The position numbers and the translations under genes were made by a program. The notes below the pieces were generated by a model. It saw only the letters and a list, made by a program, of their open reading frames with translations, was not told the origin of the DNA and made no database searches. A DNA stretch of 52,547 bases from Chitinophagales bacterium (GTDB lineage Bacteria > Bacteroidota > Bacteroidia > Chitinophagales > BACL12), in assembly GCA_019694895.1 (NCBI GenBank), contig JAIBBA010000005.1:1-52547 (forward strand), read 5' to 3'. Below are positions 43,181 to 46,926 of this stretch, in pieces (position 1 is the first letter of the stretch; every line of letters begins with the position of its first letter).

Positions 43181-43846
43181 ATGAAGCACCTTTTTGCTAT
43201 AACTGCGCTCTTCTTTACCTCATATTGTTATACACAAACTTCTACTACTTCCTATTACGGTGATGTGTATTTGTCAACGAAAGCACCACAATCAAAGGCT
43301 AAATTTTCAAAAACTACTACGCTAGCAGCAGATAGTACTATCACAACGGTGGTAACTGATTTAAAAAACAACCGGATCGTGAGCAGCGAATCCATGAAAA
43401 ACAATGAAGCTGTCGGCATTTGGTTGAAGCGCCATGGCGGACAAACTGATACCCTGGATTATCAATTCGATCTGATATATGCGGCATCAACTTGCAGGGA
43501 AAGCTTGCCCGGACTAAAAAATGTTTGGGCTGATAATGACAGCCTTCACTATAAAGCGCCGGTGCTCAAGGATAATGAAAGCGTATATGCAGCAATCGGT
43601 AATGAAGTGTATTATCCGCAATTTGCCAAAGAAAATGCCATTGAAGGAAAAGTATTTCTTGAATTCACAATTACAGAAACCGGAAAAATTGAAAATATTA
43701 TCGTGGTTAGAGGCGTACATATTTCTATGGATAAGGAAGCAGTGAGAACGGTTAAAACATTAAAATTCGAATCATTGCCAATGGTAAACGGTGTTGTTAC
43801 ACCACTCTATGTTAAAATGCCTTTAATGTTTACCTTGGCCGATTAA
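43181..43846 (+). CDS. exported protein with MORN-like region and TonB C-terminal domain
   Basis: A 221-residue protein with a cleavable-looking signal (MKHLFAITALFFTSYCYTQ) in place of the membrane anchor expected of TonB. The N-terminal part has MORN-like wording (NEAVGIWLKRHGGQTDTLDYQF), and the last 75 residues are a TonB_C domain (YPQFAKENAIEGKVFLEFTITETG; VNGVVTPLYVKMPL). Such soluble TonB_C proteins with MORN repeats are common in Bacteroidota; whether it energises a receptor is unknown. No Pro-rich linker is present. The next gene starts 17 nt after the stop. Confidence 0.78.
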   Translation: MKHLFAITALFFTSYCYTQTSTTSYYGDVYLSTKAPQSKAKFSKTTTLAADSTITTVVTDLKNNRIVSSESMKNNEAVGIWLKRHGGQTDTLDYQFDLIYAASTCRESLPGLKNVWADNDSLHYKAPVLKDNESVYAAIGNEVYYPQFAKENAIEGKVFLEFTITETGKIENIIVVRGVHISMDKEAVRTVKTLKFESLPMVNGVVTPLYVKMPLMFTLAD

Positions 43847-43863
43847 AATTAAATTTGAATCAC

Positions 43864-44724
43864 ATGAAAACTATATTGTTATTGCTTGGCGTTTCCATCG
43901 GTGCAACGCTTTTCGCACAGAAAAACCCAACAGAACTTGCCCAACCCATAGTAGCCGAAGGTAAGTTGTTGTACAAATCGGAAATGGCATCATGGTTTGG
44001 CACCGATATTTTCTTGGAGAAATTCTCTGACATGAATATTGTGGGAGGCTATTTTTCTTATACTGAAGGCGATACCTCTACATGTATTTTCTTCTCCGAT
44101 GCAGAAAAACCTGAAGTGCTTGGGGAAATTCAGTTTGACACTACCTTTAATCCCTCAACCGCTAAAGTTGATTTGGAGAGACGCAGCTTCACAAACCTTG
44201 AAAATAATCTTTTCGTGATCCGAAGTAAAGCGCTTGATGAATTGCGTTCGGATACTATGTTCATCAGATATAACAATACAGATTTTAATCTGATACCGGT
44301 AATTAAGGATGGCGAAAGGAAAGTATATGTGCTGACAGGAACTGCAAGTAATGGGGTGGTATTATTTGGTAATGACTACTTACTCACTTTTGATGCTGAA
44401 AATAACTTATTGACTAAGAAGCGAATACATCAAAACCTTATTCCTGTATATCTCAATGGTCCCGATGCAAAGAATACAGTGGGCACTATACACAGCCATC
44501 TTCCGGAAACGGGCGACTTTATGACCGCCACAGATATCTGCACAGCCATGCTATATCAAGATATTACCCATTGGGAAACAATTACGGTTGTGTCTGAAAA
44601 GTATATGAATATCTGGAATTGCCGGACAAATACCCTGACTGTAGTCGAAAAAGATATCTTCAAAAAAATCGATGAAGATCAGGAAAAACGCCATGGCAAT
44701 AAGGAAAAGAATAATGATGATTAA
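43864..44724 (+). CDS. exported protein with JAMM-like HxH-x8-TxxD motif, hypothetical
   Basis: The ATG at 43864 yields 286 residues with a signal peptide (MKTILLLLGVSIGATLFAQ). The N-terminal 150 residues are beta-rich and unrecognised. The C-terminal region has GTIHSHLPETGDFMTATDI with H210, H212, T221 and D224, similar to the HxH-x7-SxxD zinc motif of JAMM/MPN proteases but one residue longer and with Thr for Ser; the following strands (VVSEKYMNIWNC) fit that fold. The protein ends in a Lys/Asn/Asp-rich tail. A metalloprotease or deubiquitinase-like activity is inference only. It follows the TonB_C gene after 17 nt. Confidence 0.65.
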   Translation: MKTILLLLGVSIGATLFAQKNPTELAQPIVAEGKLLYKSEMASWFGTDIFLEKFSDMNIVGGYFSYTEGDTSTCIFFSDAEKPEVLGEIQFDTTFNPSTAKVDLERRSFTNLENNLFVIRSKALDELRSDTMFIRYNNTDFNLIPVIKDGERKVYVLTGTASNGVVLFGNDYLLTFDAENNLLTKKRIHQNLIPVYLNGPDAKNTVGTIHSHLPETGDFMTATDICTAMLYQDITHWETITVVSEKYMNIWNCRTNTLTVVEKDIFKKIDEDQEKRHGNKEKNNDD

Positions 44725-45513: not shown

Positions 45514-46926
45514 TTAAAATTGCTTACAAACCGGTATTGTAGTTGTGGCTCCGGTAGTGGAATTCAATATTCGGATAAAATAAATACCGCTTGACAATGT
45601 TTCACATGGTATTGTGATTAAATTGTCACCCATCTGCAAAATGGTAGATTTTTCTGCAACCATCCTTCCCATTGCGTCTATAATTGCAATTTGAGATTGT
45701 TGTTCGATGGAGCTACTCAATTGCAATTGTAAGCTGTTATTTTGAAAATAGGCATTTACACTAGTGTAAGAACCATTTTCATGCACGTCAACCGGCATAT
45801 CACCTACAATAAATTGATGCTCATAATATTTCCCTGCCAACTCTGCGCTCCATGTCCACACGCCTTCCGGAACATCTTCCGGGATGGTGTAAAACCAATA
45901 CCAGTAAGATGCGCTGAAATAATCTGCGGGCTGATAAAAGTCCCACTCATACCACACACTGCCGTCTGCACGTGTAATTTTCAAATGGCAAAGGTCTGTC
46001 GAGGATAAGTCCTTAGCATACAATGCAAAATAACAAACATCGCCAACATTAAATGTATTCGATTCATTGGTGATTTCAACTTCCGGACAAGGTGGAAATG
46101 TTGGTGGTGCAAAATGTGTTTGAAGTTTATTGATTTCCGGATCGATATATGGTTTTTGATCTGCCCACCAGCTCTCATCATTCCATTCGTTACAAGCGCC
46201 GGAGTTGGGGTCCATTAATGCACCATCTGCATCGTATAATTCGAAATGCAAATGTGGACCTGTAGAATTGCCTGAGCTGCCCACAAGTCCTAAATATTCT
46301 CCTGTTTCAACAAAATCGCCAAGCCCCTTTGCCGTAACAGACCCGTTTTTCATATGACCATACCATGCCGTAGAGCCATCATCATGACGAACAAAAACTG
46401 CATTCCATGAGCCCGGATTAAATGCGCAATTCTGATCGAAATTGCCGTCGTATCTTGCTACAATCATTCCCGGAGCTGCAGCAACAATTTGTACTTGTTC
46501 CTCTTGCATCATTTTCCATGAAAACGGCCATAAGAAATAATCTATGCCCTGATGGTTGTAGCCTGCATCGGTGTCATACGTTCTTGCACCACAATTCCAA
46601 TCCAGTAAGGCACCCGGAAACGCAGTATTGTGATCCGCAAAATTTGAAATCCCATAGAAATTATATCCACTGAACCCGGCATTCCATGCAAGCGGAAATT
46701 CTAAAGCAAGTGCCTCGGTTTTTTGTTGTGCAGGGACTAGTTTGCCTTGTGCACTTAAAACTTCAATATTGTGTTGCACGTCCGAACGCATAGCAGCATA
46801 TTGCTCCTGACTTATTTCATCATGGGGCAAAGCAGGTAATGCTCCACCGCCTTGAGGTGCAATAGATTGCGCATTTGTGAGTGAGATTATTGCAACGAAA
46901 AGGAATGCACTTAGGAGGTGTTTCAT
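45514..46926 (-). CDS. M23 family metallopeptidase with T9SS sorting domain
   Basis: The 470-residue protein begins with a signal peptide (MKHLLSAFLFVAIISLTNA) and contains an M23 (lysostaphin/LytM) domain with zinc ligands H125 and D129 (HQGID), H191 and H225-x-H227 (GPHLHFEL). After the peptidase is a beta-sandwich of about 110 residues and then a type A sorting domain (residues about 395-470) ending in TTTIPVCKQF. It is probably a secreted or surface-attached peptidoglycan hydrolase or bacteriolytic enzyme exported through T9SS. A propeptide-like segment (20-75) precedes the catalytic part. Confidence 0.9.
   Translation of the reverse strand: MKHLLSAFLFVAIISLTNAQSIAPQGGGALPALPHDEISQEQYAAMRSDVQHNIEVLSAQGKLVPAQQKTEALALEFPLAWNAGFSGYNFYGISNFADHNTAFPGALLDWNCGARTYDTDAGYNHQGIDYFLWPFSWKMMQEEQVQIVAAAPGMIVARYDGNFDQNCAFNPGSWNAVFVRHDDGSTAWYGHMKNGSVTAKGLGDFVETGEYLGLVGSSGNSTGPHLHFELYDADGALMDPNSGACNEWNDESWWADQKPYIDPEINKLQTHFAPPTFPPCPEVEITNESNTFNVGDVCYFALYAKDLSSTDLCHLKITRADGSVWYEWDFYQPADYFSASYWYWFYTIPEDVPEGVWTWSAELAGKYYEHQFIVGDMPVDVHENGSYTSVNAYFQNNSLQLQLSSSIEQQSQIAIIDAMGRMVAEKSTILQMGDNLITIPCETLSSGIYFIRILNSTTGATTTIPVCKQF

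Follow-up and report, generated by a model that had tools for sequence, protein, structure and literature searches.

The window analysed here, a stretch of 52,547 nucleotides from a Chitinophagales bacterium (assembly GCA_019694895.1, contig JAIBBA010000005.1), contains a gene for which a JAMM-like zinc motif had been predicted from the sequence. The genome holds exactly one copy of this gene. The gene of a TonB_C protein ends 17 bases before it, an OmpA-domain protein is encoded upstream of the TonB_C gene, and a SanA-like gene follows. The features of the locus are as follows.

43181-43846, + strand: TonB_C protein, exported; its C-terminal ~90 residues form the TonB_C domain
43864..44724, + strand: gene of the exported JAMM-like protein; ORF with ATG start, 286 amino acids plus stop, homologs throughout Bacteroidota
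43864..43917, + strand: signal peptide, residues 1-18 (MKTILLLLGVSIGATLFA, followed by Q), from reading of the sequence; no lipobox Cys
43918..44172, + strand: N-terminal domain, residues 19-103, from the AF2 model and conservation; long helix 27-53 and a run of strands
44173..44649, + strand: C-terminal JAMM-like domain, residues 104-262, from the AF2 models
44287..44289, + strand: Asn142, kept in 93 of 95 members; putative position of the JAMM Glu, from the order of elements versus AfJAMM
44368..44379, + strand: G169-N170-D171-Y172, a turn within the inserted strands that hardly varies, from conservation
44428..44430, + strand: His189, invariant in 95 of 95 members, from conservation
44491..44499, + strand: H210-S211-H212, with H210 and H212 as proposed zinc ligands, from conservation
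44524..44535, + strand: T221-A-T-D224, where T221 starts a helix and D224 is the proposed third zinc ligand, from conservation and the AF2 model
44650..44712, + strand: charged C-terminal helix, residues 263-283, from the AF2 model

The product begins with MKTILLLLGVSIGATLFAQ, and its hydrophobic N terminus ends in ...LFA-Q. The residue directly after this hydrophobic stretch, Q19, is Gln in 93 of 103 homologs, which agrees with the signal peptide of the original prediction. Read from the sequence, the N terminus looks like a typical Sec signal peptide and has no lipobox, which predicts an exported protein. The N-terminal domain (residues 19-103) carries the conserved motifs EG..LY..E.ASW.GTD.F and GGY.SY, and no Pfam family matched it in the Pfam search with the family members.

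The HxH...TxxD motif is real and beyond chance. H210-S-H212 and T221-A-T-D224 are present in the ORF as predicted, together with the Thr in place of Ser and a loop one residue longer than in JAMM proteins (eight residues between H212 and T221 versus seven). The prediction had been staked on the conservation of these His and Asp residues in homologs, which we counted in an alignment of 95 members (A2) and a second time over 103 sequences. The proposed ligands are kept: H210, H212, T221, T223 and D224 are each found in 94 of 95 members, H210, H212, T221 and D224 are conserved at 97-99% across the 103 sequences, and the ligand set persists in homologs down to 26% identity. E113, G169, D171, Y172 and H189 are each present in all 95 members of A2, and N170 (94), P145 (94), R107 (94) and N142 (93) in nearly as many. 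The middle residue of HxH is Ser in 64 members, Thr in 17 and Asn in seven, giving Ser, Thr or Asn in 88 of 95. The loop from H212 to T221 measures eight residues in 87 of 95 members, six in three, nine in one and seven in one, with three members falling outside the loop search pattern; the sole member with the canonical HSHx7SATD spacing, including the Ser, is L101 (HSHLVTNPFISATD). Column permutation produced an equally conserved H.H.{6,9}[ST]..D pattern in 7 of 200,000 trials, the relaxed pattern having been set after seeing the data. Elsewhere among the ORFs of the window, the relaxed motif matched only once, in an unrelated ORF of 804 amino acids.

The JAMM consensus is EXnHS/THX7SXXD, and a range of Ser, Thr or Asn between the histidines has been described for JAMM relatives (PMC300881). 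The present family shares with JAMM/MPN+ proteins (AfJAMM, Rpn11, CSN5; Prok-JAB, PF14464) the HxH combined with a helix-borne Asp, the Ser/Thr/Asn between the histidines, and the Ser/Thr at the start of a helix that is followed by strands. Unlike them, it has no conserved catalytic Glu, its loop mostly counts eight residues instead of seven, it is predicted to be exported, it carries an extra N-terminal domain and extra strands, and it gives no significant profile or fold match, the Foldseek alignments being poor.

AlphaFold2 on A2 produced a model with a pLDDT of 92 and a pTM of 0.86, and the C-terminal part modelled separately (A3, residues 104-286) reached a pLDDT of 89. The model runs from a short strand (101-103) through helix 111-129, strands 139-148 and 151-160 and four short strands to strand 207-211, which ends in HSH, and continues with helix 222-235 from TATD, strands 239-243, 247-252 and 257-262, and the C-terminal helix. 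In AfJAMM, helix 1 falls between the first and second of eight strands and helix 2 between the fourth and fifth, and the zinc site is found where strand 4 loops over into helix 2 (PMC300881). The modelled order of elements fits that of AfJAMM, further strands being inserted ahead of the one that bears HxH. In Foldseek searches with the full-length and C-terminal models against the PDB, and with the C-terminal model against BFVD, no match reached E ≤ 0.001 and the best 50 matches listed included no JAMM structure; these results say little either way, because the returned alignments were poor, mostly with an r.m.s.d. of 5-22 Å. The JAMM-like reading is partly supported, by the conserved ligands, the setting of the metal site and the downstream helix-strand-strand-strand, but not by a conserved catalytic Glu or by these Foldseek matches.

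At the level of sequence, searches of Pfam, NCBIfam and the PDB sequences gave no significant match for the window protein. It does not match Prok-JAB (PF14464), whose gathering cut-off is not reached, and the Pfam Prok-JAB model weakly matches five of the 95 members (best E-value of 0.036). Searches of PHROGs and PADLOC gave no significant family; PHROG_5556, a tail protein, matched three members with a best E-value of 0.0004, was absent from the ten divergent members examined, and was dropped. We built Prok-JAB alignments and an HMM from sequences of the neighbouring genomes. In hhalign comparisons with Prok-JAB, the HxH/D motifs fell in register unprompted, over ~30 columns and with a probability of 0.6-3.6%. 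The Prok-JAB HMM scored the window protein at 10.9 bits, with residues 203-271 as the best domain, versus 6.0 bits for the best of 1,900 full shuffles. Scores of at least 6 bits were obtained for 15% of the members, which are related and not independent, versus 0.8% of motif-preserving shuffles, of which the single best one also reached 10.9 bits. These comparisons are suggestive, not proof, of homology to JAMM over the strand-helix-strands half of the domain.

An alternative explanation is that the protein has a different fold with a convergent HxH...TxxD site, and would be a novel exported metalloenzyme or metal-binding protein instead of a JAMM homolog. The absence of JAMM structures among the best 50, poorly aligned Foldseek matches of confident models, the lack of a significant sequence link to JAMM outside the motif, and the deviating loop length and Glu all fit this explanation. 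We nevertheless consider it unlikely, since the order of elements, the Ser/Thr/Asn middle residue, the Thr/Ser at the start of the helix and the helix-borne Asp match JAMM, and one member has the exact HSHx7SxxD spacing.

In JAMM proteins, the catalytic Glu is on the strand after helix 1. The original prediction called for an alignment to check this Glu partner, and the alignment revealed none: columns 134-150 hold no conserved Glu, and strand 139-148 is without a conserved acid. Position 140 is Asn, Ser or Asp, and N142, also on this strand, is kept in 93 of 95 members (98%). E113 is invariant, yet it is located at the start of the preceding helix and not on the strand after helix 1. From the order of elements versus AfJAMM, not from superposed coordinates, we infer that N142 occupies the place of the JAMM Glu. 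The putative active site is probably still functional, because the zinc ligands are retained and so is T221; the invariant D171, H189 and E113 are candidates for the general base.

The exchange of Glu for Asn could instead have abolished catalysis, leaving an inactive JAMM-fold domain that uses zinc for structure or ligand binding and binds an envelope partner. The absence of the Glu and the 98% conservation of Asn142 are in line with such a domain, and inactive MPN domains are common as scaffolds. Inactive MPN domains, however, typically also lose the metal ligands, whereas here the ligands are ~99% conserved, in addition to T221 and the invariant D171, H189 and E113. We therefore judge a catalytically inactive domain to be rather improbable.

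The zinc signature is kept but the usual Glu is absent, and the protein is therefore probably a metal-dependent envelope hydrolase, not a proven JAMM protease. We file it under a JAMM-like zinc site and not as a JAMM protease, because we looked for a conserved Glu and the strict spacing and did not find them as features of the family, and because the fold comparison leaned neither way. The protein is most likely a zinc-dependent hydrolase, periplasmic or secreted, that stands alone, is dispensable and has a changed general base. We would give about even chances to the proposal that the protein is a stand-alone exported zinc-dependent hydrolase whose C-terminal domain bears a JAMM-like metal site. 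Such a hydrolase would be exported to the periplasm or to the outside, where it would act alone. As in JAMM proteins, zinc would be bound by H210, H212 and D224, and T221 would help to hold the transition state, the residue at its place in JAMM having the oxyanion role. With the usual Glu replaced by Asn142, the water would have to be activated by another residue, which could be D171, H189 or E113. The bond cleaved would most likely be an amide or peptide bond, in a substrate that belongs to the envelope or is external.

More specifically, the family might consist of JAMM-fold exported zinc hydrolases that act in the envelope or outside the cell and lack the canonical Glu, in which an invariant Asp or His of the inserted strands serves as the general base and the substrate is not ubiquitin-like; it would then represent a JAMM site with a novel variant of catalysis. 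We put this forward tentatively, as a possibility with the balance against it. Apart from some toxin cassettes, the known JAMM enzymes are mainly intracellular and act on ubiquitin-like proteins. An exported family that is widespread, retains the zinc ligands and has exchanged the catalytic Glu would show re-use of the JAMM site, and the JAMM-like family offers a concrete set of residues for testing.

RadC-type JAB domains resemble the present family in having an H-N-H type motif with S..D and then a helix. They differ in their HNHPSG-type motif, show no sequence match to the present family, and are cytoplasmic. Closer in their setting are Tox-JAB-1 (Toxin-JAB1) and Tox-JAB-2 (DUF4329, PF14220), which are JAB domains, likewise found in Bacteroidota, that are exported or delivered and diverge from the JABs that process UBLs. 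As C-terminal cassettes of polymorphic toxins (RHS and related types), the Tox-JABs have immunity partners and keep the Glu (PMC3482391). Unlike them, the present family is stand-alone, lacks the Glu and a recurring immunity partner, and is unmatched by those models, one DUF4329 copy having been read by eye. Toxin-JAB1 was found in none of 198 genomes, and neither Toxin-JAB1 nor DUF4329 is among the weak Pfam families of the members (25 of 41 listed). It is very improbable that the protein is an effector or toxin resembling the Tox-JABs, exported and directed against competitors or other cells: although exported JAB toxin domains occur in Bacteroidota (PMC3482391) and the distribution of the family is patchy and mobile-looking, every member has the domain linked to a conserved N-terminal domain of its own, delivery domains such as RHS and a recurring immunity neighbour are lacking, and there is no PADLOC, Pfam toxin or DUF4329 match.

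The genes around the JAMM-like gene had been taken to suggest an envelope system with the TonB_C and OmpA-like neighbours. This idea is unsupported, because these neighbours do not recur with the gene at any homolog locus and a broken copy in a sister species sits elsewhere. Clustering of the neighbours across the homolog loci gave no protein family in more than seven loci, the adjacent neighbours in the window have no counterpart beside any other copy of the family, and the co-directional close neighbours of the homologs are assorted, unrelated genes. In related genomes, matches to the TonB_C protein are confined to the common C-terminal domain, and its N-terminal part has no relatives among the matches listed from 61 related genomes. 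In the sister species of the same genus (G001), the broken copy (L132:10486-10916, G001:C162) is non-syntenic, with flanks unlike those of the window; it has a frameshift in the region of residues 57-87 and has lost HxH through an internal deletion that brings residue ~109 next to ~216. In five loci from Dysgonomonas and related Bacteroidia (L067, L071, L076, L085 and L086), the gene comes immediately after a urocanate-hydratase-like gene and is followed by formiminotransferase/imidazolonepropionase-like genes, in what appears from the sequences to be a cluster of the histidine-degradation type. The window also encodes, at 45514-46926 on the - strand, an M23-type peptidoglycan endopeptidase with a type IX secretion sorting tail.

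The family is undescribed, scattered over Bacteroidota classes and without a Pfam or NCBIfam model, and our literature searches turned up no paper describing it. Relatives occur in six of 150 neighbourhood genomes, including the genome of the window, and in 15 of 396 genomes sampled across the phylum, that is, in ~4% of the sampled Bacteroidota genomes. The genome_contigs collection holds 212 loci, and the best 80 of the 212 are all titled as Bacteroidota groups. The plasmid collection contains one distant copy, on a large replicon of Persicobacter, the phage collection contains no relative, and one contig of IMG/VR carries a copy. The tree mixes the classes of Bacteroidota, with 21 class-label changes versus a minimum possible of five, in a quick tree in which paralogy is possible. 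This patchy, class-mixing pattern suggests that the gene probably moves or is lost often. The IMG/VR copy (L131:1506-5855) adjoins a gene for an SMC/RecN-like ATPase of 1050 amino acids, possibly in a mobile or defence island. In another genome (G244), two divergent copies of the family are found in tandem (L103:699-2310).
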